In this document: in pieces, positions 2,886 to 63,858 of the stretch
Position numbering within the stretch: position 1 is the first letter of the stretch
Layout: every line of letters starts with the position of its first letter
IMG/VR virus record: IMGVR_UViG_3300046167_000733
Coordinates: 1-64,000 of that record
DNA: 64,000 nucleotides
Strand: one strand, 5' to 3'
Source: a virus
Program-made: the position numbers and the translations under genes
The notes under the pieces: model-generated
Database searches by the model: none
What the model saw: the letters and a program-made list of their open reading frames with translations, nothing else
Told to the model about the DNA's origin: nothing

Positions 2886-2953
2886 GAGGTGACATGGTCA
2901 GCACCTCTTTCCTTTCGAGAGTGGGGACATCTTAATTGGTGTCCCTTTTTTTT
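2886..2953 (+). terminator. Tandem hairpins with intrinsic terminator
   Basis: A first hairpin GAGGTG/CACCTC (2886-2891 with 2902-2907) precedes a clear intrinsic terminator: GGGACA (2924-2929) pairing with TGTCCC (2940-2945) and a run of eight T (2946-2953). It separates the tmRNA transcript from the curli-type late unit. Confidence 0.85.
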
Positions 2954-2974
2954 GTGTTTGTAGGATATAATATG

Positions 2975-2982
2975 TATAAATA
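2975..2982 (+). promoter_or_regulatory. T4-type late promoter L2 (curli-type unit)
   Basis: Perfect TATAAATA, five bases before the ATG at 2988. T4 spacing places the first transcribed base on the A of that ATG, so the message would be leaderless. Confidence 0.8.
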
Positions 2983-2987
2983 GGAAT

Positions 2988-3269
2988 ATGGACGCGGTAT
3001 TTACATTAATAAAAGAACTTGGTTTCCCTGTCGCAATGGCAATGATAGGTGGGTTCTTTATGTTTCTTACACTAAAATATATTATGGAAGGTGTTATTGG
3101 ACAAGTAAAAACCCTACATAGTATTACAGGTGCATTAGATAATCGTGTAAAGACTATGAACCACGATATGATAAGGATTGATACAACACTATGTGTCATA
3201 CTTGGATTGAGACCAGACCTTGACAGGATATCAAGGGCAGACGGAAAGAACGACGCAAGAAGAGATTGA
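2988..3269 (+). CDS. Small membrane protein, YvrJ/holin-like (first of pair)
   Basis: 93-residue protein with an N-terminal hydrophobic helix (about residues 10-32) containing LGFPVAMAMIG, then a charged, probably coiled-coil tail. The GFP-hydrophobic pattern recalls the YvrJ and BhlA-type holin-like families. The next gene encodes a clear relative. The start is taken at 2988; the AGGA there is too close to serve as a normal ribosome-binding site. Position at the head of the curli-type unit suggests an accessory in secretion or an independent lysis role. Confidence 0.6.
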   Translation: MDAVFTLIKELGFPVAMAMIGGFFMFLTLKYIMEGVIGQVKTLHSITGALDNRVKTMNHDMIRIDTTLCVILGLRPDLDRISRADGKNDARRD

Positions 3270-3271
3270 TT

Positions 3272-3511
3272 ATGGATGAGATAGTGAACGCGGTAAAGGA
3301 CTTTGGGTTTCCCATAGTTGCCGCAGTTGGAATGTTATATATGATTTACTTTGTATGGAAAACCATTACAGAGGAGATTGAAGCAAAGTTAGGTGACGCG
3401 CACGTTACCCTGATTGGACTTATTGATAGAATAAGAATGTTAGATAACGATATCATAAGACTACAACAGAAGTTAGATACCTGCGATAGAGATGAAGAGA
3501 AAACAAGATGA
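3272..3511 (+). CDS. Small membrane protein, YvrJ/holin-like (second of pair)
   Basis: 79 residues from ATG 3272; a TTG at 3266 is the alternative. It is a paralogue of the previous protein: the same amphipathic start, DFGFPIVAAVGMLYMIYFVW helix and charged helical tail. It ends in an ATGA overlap with csgF, indicating translation coupled to the curli genes. Confidence 0.6.
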   Translation: MDEIVNAVKDFGFPIVAAVGMLYMIYFVWKTITEEIEAKLGDAHVTLIGLIDRIRMLDNDIIRLQQKLDTCDRDEEKTR

Positions 3512-6543: not shown

Positions 6544-8369
6544 ATGAAAAACTGGCACGTACTCGTAACACTCGGACTACTTTTACTAGTGAGAATATCC
6601 GACCCATTTATGTTAGAGAGTGCTAGGTTATCTTGGTTTGATGGATTACAGAGAGACCAAGAACCTACTAAGTCAGAACAGATTGTTCTCGTAGATATAG
6701 ACGAACCTACACTGGAGAAGTTAGGGTCAGTATCCTATACCAAGAGATATCCTAGCAGAATATATTGATGAAGCACCAGAGGCACTTATTGGATTGAATG
6801 TCTTGTTATCAGAAGAAGACAGGTTCGGAGGAGATGCCGCACTCGCATCAGCATTGTCCTGGAAGAATAGTGTCCTTGCTATAACTCCTTCAAGTAAAAC
6901 GAATACAAAATACAGACCACCACAAATTGGTACTGCTACATTCGGAGAGAAGGACGCAACGGACTTCCTACCAGAACTCAACGGAATGTTATTTGCGAGA
7001 GAAGAACTTCACGACGCATCACTAGGATATGGTACAATATCTTCATCACGAGATGTGGACGGAATACTACGACGCGCACCTCTACTTGAATACTTTGACA
7101 ATAGAATATATCCCGCATTCGCATTAGATATACTCAGGGTTGCGGCAGGAGATATCTCATATCAAATCAGTCACAGACGATTATGGTATTCAGTTTGTTA
7201 GGATACCTGCCTTCAAGAACATACCTACAGATATAAACGGCAATGTTCAGATAGCATTCTGGAATCAGTTCGAACGATATTCCTTTACAGATATAGACAA
7301 GATACCCGAAGGAAGTATTGCGATAGTTGGTGCGACCTTTGAGGGAAGTCCTGTTGTAACAACTCCTATCGGTAATATGTATCCACACGATATTCAAGCA
7401 AACCTTATCAAGACGATGATAGATGGTGTTGTCATAACAAGACCAGACGAGTTCTTTATATACGAACTTCTCTTTACACTGGTTGTATCTTTACTACTTC
7501 TCTTTGCTCTTGTCAAGTTATCGATATGGGTATCAGGGGTGGGATTTGTTGCGATATCTGTTCTGTCTGTAATGGGTGCTACATCACTCTTCACTAAATC
7601 GTATCTATTGATTGACCCTGTGTTCCCGTTACTCGCATTACTACTTGTATTCTCACACGGAAGTTTCGTTCAGTTCTATACTCAGTTCAAACTAAAACAA
7701 CAAATCAAAGCACAGTTCGGAACCTACCTAGACCCAAGACAAGTCGAACAACTTCAGAAAAATCCAGACCTATTGAAGTTAGGTGGAGAGAGACGCGAGA
7801 TGTCTTATATGTTTACTGACATTATTGGGTTTACTCCTATATCAGAACACTATAAGAACAACGATGACCCCGAAGGATTATGCGAACTTATAAATGAATA
7901 CCTAGATGAAGTCACTCAAATCGTTTTGAATAATGGTGGTATGATTGACAAGTTCATGGGCGACTGCATAATGGCAGTATTCTCCGCACCTATTGTAATG
8001 GAGAACCACGCAGAGATGGCAGTCAAGTCTGCTATAGAGATAGAACAGAAGACCCTTGAACTCAAGAAGTTATATAAAGAACGAGGACTACCCGATATAA
8101 ATGTTGGGACAGGGGTGAATACTGGAACCGCAATCCTTGGTAACATGGGTAGTAGTACACGATTTGATTACTCTGTAATTGGTGATGCCGTCAATCTTGC
8201 GGCACGATTAGAAGCAACTGCGGGTAGAGGAGACTATAAAGACACTCCAACAATCTATTCATCATATACAAAAGACCTCTTACCCGACACAATAAAGTCT
8301 GTCAAGATAGGCGATATCAAAGTCAAGGGTAAAGAAGAACTCATCGAAATATACTCCCCACAAAAATAA
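6544..8369 (+). CDS. CHASE2-domain class III adenylate cyclase (frame broken)
   Basis: About 607 residues after removing two single-base insertions (GGG at 6724-6726; 7164-7169). N-terminal membrane helix, then a periplasmic CHASE2 sensor (FDGLQRDQ, IVLVDIDEPTLEKLG, LLSEEDRFGGD). Three membrane helices follow (about 302-380), then a cytoplasmic cyclase domain (about 415-600). Catalytic features are present: the metal Asp of FTDIIGF, the Lys and metal Asp of DKFMGD, and the transition-state Asn/Arg of VNLAARLEA. It should make cAMP from ATP in response to an envelope signal. It follows the FecR gene by one base, suggesting that FecR, curli-like fibre and cyclase form one sensing unit. Confidence 0.9.
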
Positions 8370-12325: not shown

Positions 12326-13004
12326 ATGTTTATACACGAATCAGTAAAACTCACAGAGATGGATGCCGTCACAACCGAGAAGGGTCGTAAATATCGTACA
12401 CCCGAAGGTGTTGACTTGCCCTCTATCACAACAGTACTTTCAATCCTGTCAAGAGATAGTATTGCGAAGTGGCGTAAGAGAGTAGGAGCAAAAGAAGCAA
12501 ACCGTATCTCTGGTAAGGCATCGGGTCGTGGTACTCGCGTTCATGAGATTACCGAGAAGTATATTGACAATAACCCTAACTACAAAGAAGGGTACACCCC
12601 TGATATCATTCATTCCGTTCAATGTGATGAAACCAATCCTTGATGGATTTATTGGTAAGGTCTATGCTCAAGAAGCACCTCTGTATTCCAATCACCTTGG
12701 AGTTGCAGGACGAGTTGACTGCGTTGCTGAGTTTGATGGAGTACTATCCATCATCGACTTCAAGACCTCAATGAAACCTAAGAAGAGAGAATGGGTCAAG
12801 AACTACTTTATGCAGGAAGCGGCATATGCCATAATGTGGGAAGAACGTACAGGTCAACCTATCACTCAACTTGTCACTATCATATCAGTAGATGGCAAAG
12901 ACAAACCACAAATCTATGTAGAACATCGTGATAACTGGATAAACACTCTGAGAGACACAATAAAAAAGTATAATGAGGAAAACTCTAGTTCCGTTTTGTT
13001 ATAA
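12326..13004 (+). CDS. Cas4/RecB-like PD-(D/E)XK exonuclease (frame broken)
   Basis: About 225 residues after removing one inserted base near 12613-12624. It resembles the T4-like-phage exonucleases of the RecB/Cas4 family: LPSITTVLSIL start, HEITEKYI, then AGRVDCVAEFDGVLSIIDFKTSMK, which holds the nuclease core (D...D-x-K), and QEAAYAIMWEERTG, the usual Gln-containing motif IV. Likely role in DNA degradation or recombination. Transcribed from early promoter P5. Confidence 0.82.
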
Positions 13005-15972: not shown

Positions 15973-17442
15973 ATGATTAAGAATTTTAAAGACTATTTGA
16001 TTGAAGAGACCCGTGAGGTCTACTTCACGTTTGGAAGAATGAATCCACCCTACAATAGGTCACGGAAAAGTATTAGACACGATTGCAACTAAAGCATCTG
16101 GTGCAGACTGGAAAGTCTATGTATCTCATAGTACTGGACCCAAAGACCCATTAACATATTCAGATAAGATTAAACACCTACGCAAGATGTTCCCAAAGCA
16201 TGGTCGTAACATCATAGTCGATAAGAGTGTCAAGAATGTATTCGATATTGCGAGAGTATTATACGACGCAGGATACAAACGCATCAACATGGTAGTTGGA
16301 GAAGACCGACTACGAGAGTTCGATGTACTACTCAATAAATATAACGGCAAGAAAGCACGCCACGGATTCTATAACTTTGAGTCAATCAAGAGTAGTATCT
16401 GCAGGGTCGTAGAGACCCTGATGCCGAAGGTGTAGAAGGAATGTCTGCATCTAAACAACGTGCCAACGCAACAGATAATAACTATCAAGCATTCACTTTG
16501 GGTGTTCCAAAGAATATGAATGATAAAGATACACGCAAACTCTTTAATGACGTAAGGAAAGGTTTAGGTCTTAAAGAACAAACAACATTTAAAAATCACA
16601 TCGACCTTGGTAAGAAAGATGATACTCGTGAGGCATATGTCAACGGGACTCTATTTGAACTGGGCGATACAGTAGCAATAAAAGAGAGCGATGAGATAGG
16701 AACCGTAACCGTATTAGGTGCGAACTATGTTATCGTTGAATGTGGCGAAAGGAAGTTACGAAAATGGTTAGACGCAGTTCAGTTAGTTGAACGACAAGAC
16801 CCTGATGTAAAGGATAAGAAGGGAACACAACCTGCCAAGTATTACGCAAAGGATGCTAAAGGTAAGGAGATGTCTAAGTCTACCAAATCGAAACGCGACG
16901 CCCACTTTAAGAAAGGTACGGCAATGGATGACGATAATCCAAATGCCTACAAACCTGCTCCGGGTGACAAATCAGCGAAGACGAAACCAAGTAAGTATAC
17001 CAAAGACTATGAAAAGATGTTCGGAGAGAACGCAGGGGAAATAGGCACAGACAAACTAAAAAAGAAATACACAGACGATACACCACTAGAAGAAATCTTT
17101 GGAAAGCATATTGACCTATCGGGTCGTCCTTTCCTATCAAACTTTGATGGTGTTGTCAACGGGGATATTCACAGAAAGATTATTCGTAGATGGATAAAGG
17201 ATGTTGCGAGAAAGAAGTTTGATGCAACTCAAGCACAAAAACATTTAGGAGACCTCGTTAGACTCATAGGTGGTAATATTAATAATGTCCAAAAAACACT
17301 ATTTAAAATCTTTGATAGGAAGGCATTGCCCGCGCGTCTTGACTATCGTAAAACAAGAACATTTATGAAGTCAGATGTAACAGTCAATAAAAAAGACCTC
17401 GCAAAGAGAATAACAGAAACACGAAGAAGGTTAAAGAAATGA
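15973..17442 (+). CDS. Cytidylyltransferase-like protein (NMNAT/FAD-synthase type, frame broken)
   Basis: About 488 residues once three inserted bases are removed (CCC at 16048-16050; 16388-16391; GGG at 16404-16406). The N-terminus reads EVYFTFGRMNPPTIGHGKVL, the G-x-x-x-P-x-H-x-GH-type HxGH variant of nucleotidylyltransferases. It continues to MVVGEDR and VSAGRRDPDA, then SASKQRANA, the ISSTRVR-like motif. The C-terminal region (about 170-488) is Lys-rich, with an SH3-like patch (GTVTVLGANYVIVECGERKLRKWL). Substrate unknown. Confidence 0.75.
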
Positions 17443-20811: not shown

Positions 20812-21090
20812 ATGGCAGACACACAAAAAGAAAGATTAGACCGTATAGAGTTTAAACTTGACCAGATGGCAGAAGTCATGGTCAGTCTCGCACGAGTTGA
20901 AGAGAAGTTGCAGGCAAGCGAGGAAGTTCGCACGAATGCAGTAGAGAGAATGAATAGGTTCTCTGTGAAACTTGACGAAATAGAGAAGGTCTGTGATAGT
21001 AATCACGGAACAATAAAGGTTATAAATAAAATAGTATGGTTGATAAGTGCCGCAATAATTGCGGGAACTATCAACGTAATCTGGATGTAA
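20812..21090 (+). CDS. XhlA-like coiled-coil membrane protein
   Basis: 92 residues: a long heptad-type coiled coil (about 5-60, EERLDRIEFKLDQMAEVMVSLARVEEKL-like pattern) and a C-terminal membrane helix (about 70-91, KIVWLISAAIIAGTINVIW). This is the layout of the XhlA/hemolysin-type accessory lysis proteins. First gene after late promoter L4. A lysis role fits time of expression and topology. Confidence 0.65.
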   Translation: MADTQKERLDRIEFKLDQMAEVMVSLARVEEKLQASEEVRTNAVERMNRFSVKLDEIEKVCDSNHGTIKVINKIVWLISAAIIAGTINVIWM

Positions 21091-42610: not shown

Positions 42611-42618
42611 TATTTATA
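42611..42618 (-). promoter_or_regulatory. T4-type late promoter L7 (minus strand)
   Basis: TATTTATA on the plus strand = TATAAATA on the minus strand, followed by CTAGGAG and ATG 42592. Drives the four-gene minus cluster. Confidence 0.75.
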
Positions 42619-46319: not shown

Positions 46320-46327
46320 TATAAATA
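46320..46327 (+). promoter_or_regulatory. T4-type late promoter L8 (gp32)
   Basis: TATAAATA, three bases upstream of the -35 box of early promoter P14; both serve gp32. Confidence 0.7.
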
Positions 46328-46330
46328 CAC

Positions 46331-46359
46331 TTGACTTTACAGTCACAATATGATATAAT
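46331..46359 (+). promoter_or_regulatory. Early sigma70-like promoter P14 (gp32)
   Basis: TTGACT (46331-46336), 17 bp, perfect TATAAT (46354-46359); ACAAGGAAAAAT leader to ATG 46403. Confidence 0.85.
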
Positions 46360-50497: not shown

Positions 50498-51085
50498 TTA
50501 ACCTATCATTTTTCTTGAATCTTTATACGCAGTAAGAGGATTAGGTATCTTAGCAAACTGAGCAATCGGAAGGAATGTTGCAATCTCCCATTCAGGGGCG
50601 GGTACTCTCGCGAACTGACTTTTTACATGGGCAGAAAGGTAATGTTTAAAACACGGTTTGAAATATCTCATACTACTCATACCTTTGAGTCTTTCATATG
50701 TAATATCAAACTTTGCGTTAGGTGATTTCTTACTTGTAGCAACTTCCATTAATGAGTCTAACATCTTTGCCCTTAGTACAGGGGGAAGGTAGTGAAGATT
50801 CAATCCATAGAAACCTTTCTCAGCAGGACCAACTACAACAACCAAAGGAAACTTATCGTAATAAGGTAGTGTATCTTTTGTCTTTGGGTCATAGAAGAAC
50901 ATCTGCATAGAACCAACGATTTCTTGTCCACCTCTTTCGATAGGGTCTTCTTGCATTAGGTCTTTACGATTGATTCCACGTAATGCCTTTGCACGTTGAC
51001 GAAACCACTTACGTGATTCATCGGTACGAGGGTTCACACCCGCGCGGAATGCTTCTCTTGATAGTGTATCGAATATCTTACTCAT
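50498..51085 (-). CDS. Conserved virion-assembly protein, 195 aa
   Basis: 195 residues: SREAFRAGVNPRTDESRKWFRQRAKAL start, then GSMQMFFYDPKTKDTLPYYDKFPLVVVVG, FYGLNLHYLPPVLRAKMLD, and a basic C-terminus. I recall this family in T4-like and other large phages next to gp4-type genes, without a function. The gene has its own late promoter (L9) five bases before the ATG, giving a leaderless message. Confidence 0.7.
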   Translation of the reverse strand: MSKIFDTLSREAFRAGVNPRTDESRKWFRQRAKALRGINRKDLMQEDPIERGGQEIVGSMQMFFYDPKTKDTLPYYDKFPLVVVVGPAEKGFYGLNLHYLPPVLRAKMLDSLMEVATSKKSPNAKFDITYERLKGMSSMRYFKPCFKHYLSAHVKSQFARVPAPEWEIATFLPIAQFAKIPNPLTAYKDSRKMIG

Positions 51086-51090
51086 ACGTC

Positions 51091-51098
51091 TATTTATA
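51091..51098 (-). promoter_or_regulatory. T4-type late promoter L9 (minus strand)
   Basis: TATTTATA on the plus strand = TATAAATA on the minus strand, GACGT spacer, ATG at 51085. The predicted start is the A of the ATG. Confidence 0.78.
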
Positions 51099-51584
51099 CT
51101 ATTTTTTACGACGTTTGTAAGGTTTTATTGGTTTTAATGGTTTGGTTGACTTAGGTATAATAGACTTAAGAGGTTCGTTCTTCTCAGTCCATATCACAAA
51201 CTCCCAACCCCTGTCCTTGGCATATTCTTCTGCCGCTTCCCATTTGTTCACGTTCTTAATATAAGTTAAACTCTCGGTAAGATATCTCTTTGTCCTTCTT
51301 GCCCCCTTGGGAGGTCTTGTCTGTCCATCGGGTTTTATCTCCACAAGGAATGTCTTACCCTGTTTAGTTGAAAGTTTCAAGTCCATAAAGTATCGGTGAT
51401 ACTTCCTATCTACTTCATATAGATAAGGTATAACAACTTCTTCAGATGACCATTTAATTATATTGGGGTTGTCGTCACACCACTTGAAGGCATGTCGTTC
51501 CCATAGAGAACGATAGATGACCTTGGTTGGGTCACCCTCATACTTAGATGGATTTTTTACTGAATATCTTCCAGAATATGCCAT
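51099..51584 (-). CDS. gp4: gp4-like head completion protein
   Basis: 161 residues. YEGDPTKVIYRSLWERHAFKWCDDNPNIIKWSSEEVVIPYLYEVD and HRYFMDLKLSTKQGKTFLVEIKPDGQTRPP match T4 gp4 (gp50/65), the head completion protein with a TnsA-like nuclease fold; the acidic D and E-x-K of such folds are present. It seals the filled head for tail joining. It ends directly before promoter L9; its own promoter is not clear. Confidence 0.88.
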   Translation of the reverse strand: MAYSGRYSVKNPSKYEGDPTKVIYRSLWERHAFKWCDDNPNIIKWSSEEVVIPYLYEVDRKYHRYFMDLKLSTKQGKTFLVEIKPDGQTRPPKGARRTKRYLTESLTYIKNVNKWEAAEEYAKDRGWEFVIWTEKNEPLKSIIPKSTKPLKPIKPYKRRKK

Positions 51585-51592
51585 AAAAACCT

Positions 51593-51600
51593 TATAAATA
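51593..51600 (+). promoter_or_regulatory. T4-type late promoter L10 (baseplate operon)
   Basis: TATAAATA in the divergent gap between gp4 and gp48; TSS near 51606, TAGGAAAA site before ATG 51638. Confidence 0.8.
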
Positions 51601-52852: not shown

Positions 52853-53610
52853 TGCCTACTTCATATTTCAAAAACTTTGCTACTATAGGTTACAGATTTG
52901 GTGACAATGAACTTCCTGTTGCCTTCAAACAACTTTCTCAATATGTTTCTGTATTAGAAGAAACATTTAATAATGCTACTTTGTTTAATAAGTATACAGT
53001 AATCGCAGGAGAAAGACCTGACACATTATCGTTTAAACTCTATGGAACAACAGACCACTATTGGACATTCTTTCTTATGAACGAACATCTCCGTGAGTCG
53101 GGTTGGGCAATACCGTCTTATGATTTACTTGATGAAGCAAAGTCTCGTTATCCTTATAGAACTGTAACAACAAACACAGATGTCTCTGCAAACTTTCCAG
53201 TAGGTCAAGTCGTGACAGGAGCATCAAGTGGCACAACAGGAACTATCATTCGTAAGATACCTGATTTAGGACAACTTGTGATTGATACAGGCGCAGAACC
53301 TAATACCGACAAATTTAGTTCTACTGAAAACATAACCTATCAAGATACTGATGGTAATATACAATCTGCAGTTCTCATTGCAGAGTCCGAACAATATAAT
53401 TCTGTTCATCACTATGAAGATGCTGATGGAGTTTATCAAGACTTAACATTATTTGATTTTGGAACAGTAGGTGCATCTTTAACGCCTGTTACATATAGAG
53501 ATAGAATTGAATCACGAAACGATGAGTTGAAAGAGATTGTTGTTATCAAACCAAGTGCTATTGATGGAGTATCCCTTCAATTCAAAGAACTTATGAAACA
53601 AAGATTATAA
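52852..53610 (+). CDS. gp53: gp53-like baseplate wedge protein
   Basis: 252 residues: SYFKNFATIGYRFGDNELPVAFKQLSQY start and FNKYTVIAGERPDTLSFKLYGTTDHYWTFFLMNEHLRESGWAIPSYDL, the LysM-like conserved gp53 region. The middle carries an extra beta insert (VTGASSGTTGTIIRKI), and the end resembles VVIKPSAIDGV in cyanophage copies. It joins wedges to the hub in baseplate assembly. TAATG overlap with gp48. Confidence 0.88.
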   Translation: MPTSYFKNFATIGYRFGDNELPVAFKQLSQYVSVLEETFNNATLFNKYTVIAGERPDTLSFKLYGTTDHYWTFFLMNEHLRESGWAIPSYDLLDEAKSRYPYRTVTTNTDVSANFPVGQVVTGASSGTTGTIIRKIPDLGQLVIDTGAEPNTDKFSSTENITYQDTDGNIQSAVLIAESEQYNSVHHYEDADGVYQDLTLFDFGTVGASLTPVTYRDRIESRNDELKEIVVIKPSAIDGVSLQFKELMKQRL

Positions 53611-60572: not shown

Positions 60573-60580
60573 TATAAATA
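60573..60580 (+). promoter_or_regulatory. T4-type late promoter L11 (gp25)
   Basis: TATAAATA, GAACT spacer, ATG 60586: predicted leaderless start of the gp25-gp6 message. Confidence 0.8.
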
Positions 60581-60585
60581 GAACT

Positions 60586-61035
60586 ATGACAAGAAGAGCA
60601 TACTCACAAGAAGACGCAAACTTAGGAACTAACTCAGTTCCTATAGCACGAAAGCGTGAATATAAGGATATAGACCTGACACTCGCGGTCAAACCAACGA
60701 GTGGTGATATCTATAAGAAACTTGATGCGGCGGCAGTTAAGCAATCAGTAAAAAATCTTATCATGACGAACCAACTTGAAAAACCATTTAAACCTAGATT
60801 TGGTGCTAATATAAGAAATTTACTTTTTGAATTGATTGATAATAATTCAGATGCATTAGTTAAGAAAAGACTTTTTTCTGCAATAACAAGGTCTGAACCA
60901 AGAGTAAGAGTATTAGATATCCGAGTATCCTATACTGATAACTATAGCAATACTTTGGATACAACAATAACATTTAAAGTTTTGAACTCACCAGAGGTGT
61001 TTCAAATAACTACAAATCTCGCAAGGTTAAGATAA
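60586..61035 (+). CDS. gp25: gp25-like baseplate wedge protein
   Basis: 149 residues. YKDIDLTLAVKPTSGDIYKKLDAAAVKQSVKNLIMTN, then EKPFKPRFGANIRNLLFELID and RVLDIRVSYTDN, the signature of gp25 (PF04965 type), the lysozyme-related wedge protein that binds the sheath. No ribosome-binding site upstream; the ATG is 5 bases from late promoter L11. Confidence 0.93.
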   Translation: MTRRAYSQEDANLGTNSVPIARKREYKDIDLTLAVKPTSGDIYKKLDAAAVKQSVKNLIMTNQLEKPFKPRFGANIRNLLFELIDNNSDALVKKRLFSAITRSEPRVRVLDIRVSYTDNYSNTLDTTITFKVLNSPEVFQITTNLARLR

Positions 61036-63850: not shown

Positions 63851-63858
63851 TATAAATA
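63851..63858 (+). promoter_or_regulatory. T4-type late promoter L12
   Basis: TATAAATA after the preceding stop; AGGA site and ATG 63883 follow. Confidence 0.78.

Follow-up and report, generated by a model that had tools for sequence, protein, structure and literature searches.

Late transcription of phage T4 is a textbook system, in which Shine-Dalgarno leaders are present on the late mRNAs. In the T4 late octamer, the first T is located at -13, and TA occupies -13/-12 (PMC2988020). For leaderless translation, a strong preference for AUG is described in E. coli, with a similar trend in Caulobacter (PMC9031893). The late TATG motif of phage phiKZ resembles the promoters described below in overlapping the transcription start and containing ATG; however, it is read by a phage-encoded polymerase, and its +1 is the G of TATG (PMC4666361). 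TATG itself is thus no leaderless start codon, and phiKZ was rejected as a precedent. Phage P23-45, another candidate precedent, was not confirmed as leaderless in the literature examined. A curli-type gene unit is known in pelagimyophages and in Melnitz, for which 15 late promoters were counted; no mention of a start-codon fusion was found in the same paper (PMC9004378). In the paper describing the Mosig phage, the word "leaderless" occurs solely as a software reference.

Fused late promoters in the G000 record

The DNA analysed here (the window) comprises bases 1-64000 of a 107,776-base IMG/VR virus record (IMGVR_UViG_3300046167_000733), called G000. It is T4-like: gp25, gp2 and gp4 were recognised by PHROGs, and a homologue of the late sigma factor gp55 is located at 104299-104847 of G000 (46% identical to the HTVC008M sigma factor, E 6.5e-39). 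The HTVC008M gp45 query gave no match in G000; the record is possibly a fragment, or the query is possibly too divergent. By baseplate DNA, the nearest named phages are Pelagibacter phage HTVC008M and the Methylophilales phages Melnitz.

The sequence TATAAATANNNNNATG occurs in the window at 2975-2990(+), 60573-60588(+) and 51098-51083(-), exactly where the earlier note had placed it. Three occurrences of TATAAATA-N5-ATG compare with 0.08 expected in dinucleotide shuffles, and 0/100 shuffles reach three. A count over the whole record, which had been proposed as a check, gave four, the fourth being located beyond the window at 95980-95995(+) of G000. If only the frequency of ATG is considered, four or more of the 23 TATAAATA sites would have ATG at a single fixed spacing with a probability of 8e-4. 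All four ATGs open plausible genes, encoding a 93-aa protein, gp2, gp25 and a 70-aa ORF.

At the first site, the late promoter TATAAATA (2975..2982, +) is followed by the five-base spacer GGAAT (2983..2987, +), and T4 numbering (PMC2988020) predicts +1 at the A in position 2988. This A begins the gene of a 93-aa holin-like protein (phrog_18771; 2988..3269, +), predicted to be leaderless. Next come a second member of the phrog_18771 family with a weak holin profile match (3272..3511, +), CsgF (PF10614; 3508..3993, +), CsgG (PF03783; 3938..4759, +), a repeat protein without a Pfam match, a FecR domain protein (PF04773) and, further on, a guanylate cyclase with CHASE2. The promoter had been placed at the head of a curli-type unit; it does precede CsgF and CsgG, but the first gene encodes the small holin-like protein. 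An intrinsic terminator (2923..2954, +; 9-bp stem, T8, fold z -4.3) stops about 20 nt 5' of the promoter, and because the two are so near, the mRNA of the curli-type unit most likely begins at 2988.

Just 5' of this unit, at 2118-2579 of the window, there is a permuted (two-piece) tmRNA of the alphaproteobacterial type with the tag ANDNSFAHENFALAA, likewise present in Melnitz; a copy of TATAAATA at 2141 falls within it. The type of this tmRNA hints at an alphaproteobacterial link. Leaderless mRNAs are reported in alphaproteobacteria, e.g., Caulobacter and Sinorhizobium, and, given such a link, they would be workable in the host.

The promoter fused to gp2 (51091..51098, -) abuts the stop codon of gp4, the upstream neighbour of gp2 (head closure, phrog_218; 51099..51584, -). 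The gp2 gene (DNA end protector, 195 aa, phrog_429; 50498..51085, -), predicted to be leaderless, starts 13 nt after this stop. The same prediction is made for gp25 (baseplate wedge, 149 aa, phrog_261; 60586..61035, +), the promoter of which is located at 60573..60580 (+). The 70-aa ORF of unknown function has its promoter at 95980 of G000 and its ATG at 95993 (+).

Other late promoters of the window can be compared with these. The TATAAATA copy at 21021..21028 (+) is separated by a 7-nt spacer from ATG 21036 of a 151-aa ORF without a Pfam match, so that the 21021-21038 site possibly yields a 2-nt leader. Leadered late promoters are found at 63851..63858 (+) with a 24-nt spacer, at 51593..51600 (+) with a 37-nt spacer and at 42611..42618 (-) with an 18-nt spacer containing AGGAG; the last has GAACTA after the octamer in common. 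At 46320-46359, TATAAATA is directly followed by a near-perfect sigma-70 promoter (TTGACT, 17 nt, TATAAT), 5' of a long ORF that counts 332 aa if read from TTG and 308 aa if read from ATG; late and early promoters may be arranged in tandem here. Elsewhere in the window, at 16384-16454, 71 bases have 88.7% identity to cyanophage ACG-2014b DNA annotated as cytidyltransferase, the surrounding region being otherwise dissimilar.

The extended motif does not distinguish the fused sites. The form TATAAATAG-R-N-N-T-A, which the earlier note had presented as shared by them, is indeed present at all four; however, G-R-N-N-T-A also occurs at non-fused late promoters of G000 (13000, 20766, 76786, 91738, 101516(-) and 42618(-)). 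It is therefore common to leadered late promoters, and G-R-N-N-T was rejected as a mark of the fused class. In relatives, 66 leadered late promoters with Shine-Dalgarno sequences have mostly G/A at -5, mostly A at -4, and A at +1 in 39/66.

Recurrence in relatives and cultured phages

The proposed count in relatives was carried out on 226 loci, a set that is biased, since it was collected via the feature-bearing genes. Spacing 5 was found in 71/293 unique TATAAATA sites, and no site has spacing 1, 3 or 4; with 55 A/T-permuted control octamers, spacing 5 makes up 0.5%. All 71 start codons at spacing 5 are ATG, with no GTG or TTG. The fused geometry was also found at unrelated genes, encoding an Fe-S carrier-like protein and tail-tube-like proteins. 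An independent scan of IMG/VR used patterns of equal letters at four spacings, and its results can be compared as fractions of the matches listed, though not as totals: T4-like late marker genes follow 45/119 of the listed matches at spacing 5, 26/109 at spacing 6, 8/99 at spacing 4 and 8/113 at spacing 8.

Homologues of the individual genes differ in how far the geometry extends. All gp25 homologues that are 55-100% identical and have upstream sequence keep exactly 5 nt, with the spacers gaact, atgat, aacgt, agaat and gtatc, and more distant ones have spacings of 23-25 nt. The gp2 homologues fall into two discrete spacing classes, 5-6 nt or about 25-41 nt. On the gp2 tree, in which long branches lead to the three cultured phages, the fused state has about three changes (four as first scored; three once row L043 is counted as fused). 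For the 70-aa ORF, the same geometry is kept in 23 loci, and farther relatives (52-57% identity) have spacers of 11-16 nt with purine-rich leaders. The holin-like gene mostly has 5 nt in relatives, some members having 7 and some 16-29, and many farther relatives are without a late octamer nearby.

The spacing of five is thus the main one and not the sole one: 6 and 7 also occur, and they would correspond to leaders of 1-2 nt. In one genome, G002 (loci L732-L738; record positions 12635, 58707, 103954 and 132133), four late-promoter genes have spacing 4, all with a pyrimidine before ATG. Under strict T4 numbering, the AUG would be cut there unless the start site is shifted; this observation fits T4 numbering least well and suggests a lineage-specific start position. 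The crude gene caller used in the G002 survey misses the 2988 ORF, most likely due to longer overlapping ORFs on the other strand.

In the cultured phage HTVC008M, all nine ATAAATA-N5-ATG sites are annotated starts: 6280, 7562 (CsgF), 19456, 31132 (gp25), 49760, 75559, 142360, 16007(-) and 18916(-, gp2). CsgF at 7562 is the first of the csgF-csgG-csgB genes, and the full TATAAATA is present at five of the nine sites. Three Melnitz matches fall on annotated starts, at 53573 (cyclase, with a non-T first base), 61011(-), regarded as gp2 from its location and length, and 119793(-); one further match, at 128007, is off annotated starts. The fused sites of Mosig are gp2 at 106670(-), 60990, and 60328(-) with a non-T first base. 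The sole TATAAATA-N5-ATG match of T4 is located behind gene 31, and no annotated gene starts there. The cyanophages Syn9, P-SSM2 and S-PM2, as well as KVP40, have no TATAAATA matches at spacing 5, and the relaxed ATAAATA gave 1-3 matches in the three cyanophages, about as many as the reversed control. HTVC008M also encodes ribosomal protein S21 (KC465899.1 91228-91431, locus L241); a link to phage-encoded S21 was considered, and G000 has no S21 match.

Taken from sequence comparison, the fused promoters are a gene-independent class: the spacing is kept as the spacer diverges, the genes are unrelated, and the arrangement returns in cultured phages. It looks like a selected and recurrent arrangement rather than chance.

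Transcription start and translation of the fused genes

With the octamer at -13 to -6, five further bases put +1 on the A of ATG. The same placement had been made earlier by T4 spacing, and it agrees with the position of the octamer's first T at -13 (PMC2988020); we infer that the RNA 5' end of the fused genes is at this A. It is highly probable that gp55-type late promoters are fused to start codons so as to give leaderless (0-2 nt) late mRNAs. In the proposed mechanism, the ATG of the first gene would have its A at +1 in a subset of late promoters of G000 and its marine relatives. Late in infection, RNA synthesis by the host RNA polymerase with the phage sigma factor gp55 would begin 0-2 nt from AUG. 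Translation of the first gene (2988 holin-like, 51085 gp2, 60586 gp25 or 95993 70-aa) would in that case begin at a 5'-terminal AUG with no Shine-Dalgarno leader, and that of the downstream operon genes would proceed in the usual way. Any benefit might be compactness or suitability for Shine-Dalgarno-independent initiation late in infection.

According to an alternative that is possible but doubtful, RNA begins 1-3 nt before the ATG, or its start varies in position, which would produce an ultra-short leader. Its function would be much alike, and it overlaps the 0-2 nt of the explanation given above. Bacterial RNA polymerase is flexible in its choice of start, and spacings 6 and 7 at homologous genes fit this, whereas the dominance of spacing 5 does not. 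The base before ATG fits initiation at A: among the fused sites, 72/74 have a pyrimidine at -1 vs 33/66 leadered ones, and fused sites outside the queried gene families retain the difference (17/20 vs 33/66, p 0.009). Since the usual initiator of RNA polymerase is a pyrimidine-purine step, this bias suggests that the transcription start of the fused class appears sharpened on the A of ATG.

Less likely, and on the whole improbable, is that the promoters are real but their transcripts serve the downstream genes only, the fused gene being read from read-through mRNA and the -13 position being a by-product of compaction. T4-like phages make long polycistronic late RNAs, and intergenic gaps here are tiny. 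With the gp4 stop only 13 nt before gp2, read-through supply of gp2 is possible, and a polycistronic mRNA from the upstream gene may serve gp2, and likewise gp25, too. Compaction alone, however, predicts a spread of spacings, while in the relative loci the spacings peak sharply at 5, with no site at 1, 3 or 4. Moreover, the octamer is located where a Shine-Dalgarno sequence would be, so a read-through RNA would be without one. Fused gp2 genes begin with ATG in 33/33 cases and have a Shine-Dalgarno sequence in 0/33, whereas among 20 leadered gp2 genes there are 13 ATG and 7 GTG starts, and 15 Shine-Dalgarno sequences; on the gp2 tree, the association of ATG versus GTG with the fused state did not test as phylogenetically independent, the informative pairs being few (sign test p 0.5). 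In HTVC008M, all leadered late entries (6/6) have a Shine-Dalgarno sequence, as do 99/191 of all non-fused genes, compared with 1/5 fused ones, that match overlapping the octamer edge.

Terminators also argue against read-through. Besides the one upstream of 2988, 30/251 fused sites having spacing 5 or 6 are preceded by an intrinsic terminator at no more than 80 nt, compared with 3 in control windows. A terminator directly 5' of a fused promoter leaves almost no space for another promoter and leader. At L224, L231, L261, L291, L318, L327 and L337, often before tail-tube-like genes, the terminator T-run touches or nearly touches the fused TATAAATA, and terminator, promoter and start codon are contained in about 50 bases.

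It is very improbable that the fused ATGs are not true starts and that later in-frame codons are used, such as M17 or M19 of the 2988 ORF. In-frame ATGs do exist further down this ORF; however, homologues align from residue 1, and leadered homologues with a Shine-Dalgarno sequence begin at the equivalent codon (MSNIF in gp2, M-x-x-x-F-x-L-I in the holin-like family). The annotators of HTVC008M picked the same gp2 and gp25 starts. Chance occurrence of TATAAATA-N5-ATG in an AT-rich genome, for which one could cite the mere four copies in G000, has a negligible probability and is refuted by the comparative data, i.e., by the excess over the expected number in the window, conservation in divergent relatives and recurrence in cultured phages.

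The earlier idea, that late promoters joined on purpose to start codons constitute a class of their own and give leaderless mRNA, is supported in part. It holds in every comparison made, the geometry being conserved and recurrent, with ATG only, no Shine-Dalgarno sequence and terminators upstream; the leaderless state itself is predicted from these features. A broader reading is put forward tentatively, at a little less than an even chance: in marine T4-like phages, the gp55 promoter and the start codon may constitute one evolved element. The late sigma factor would thereby govern both the timing and the leaderless, Shine-Dalgarno-independent translation of chosen virion and lysis genes, and the spacing (5, 6, or 4 in G002) would be tuned in each lineage to start-site choice.

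Comparison with known systems

Both components of the arrangement are known, and no description of their systematic fusion in T4-like late genes, nor any paper combining leaderless mRNA with T4-like late promoters, was found in the open-access literature. If the leaderless reading is true, a widespread subset of leaderless late genes would couple the late sigma factor directly to another mode of translation initiation in phages that infect abundant ocean bacteria, and would account for ribosome-binding sites missing from such phage genomes. For phage annotation, a single sequence rule fixes the start codon and the promoter together. HTVC008M, Mosig and Melnitz are cultured, so the arrangement is open to direct testing.

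These three phages, two from Pelagibacter (HTVC008M and Mosig) and one from Methylophilales, are alike in being T4-like, and HTVC008M and Melnitz carry a curli-like unit. All of them share the fused gp2 promoter with G000; HTVC008M also has fusions at gp25 and CsgF, and Melnitz has one at the cyclase gene. The late promoters of T4 itself (gp55/gp33/gp45) are similar in having TATAAATA at the -10 position before virion genes, in line with the gp55 homologue of G000. They differ in that a leader, which usually contains a Shine-Dalgarno sequence, comes after the T4 octamer, and no annotated T4 start is located at spacing 5, whereas a subset of G000 late promoters is leaderless by prediction. With bacterial and phage leaderless mRNAs, lambda cI being the classic example, the fused genes would have in common a 5'-terminal AUG, the lack of a Shine-Dalgarno sequence and AUG over GUG (PMC9031893), a match predicted for G000 from its sequence. 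Unlike the lambda cI type, the predicted leaderless state is here built into a phage-specific class of late promoters and concerns several virion and lysis-type genes.
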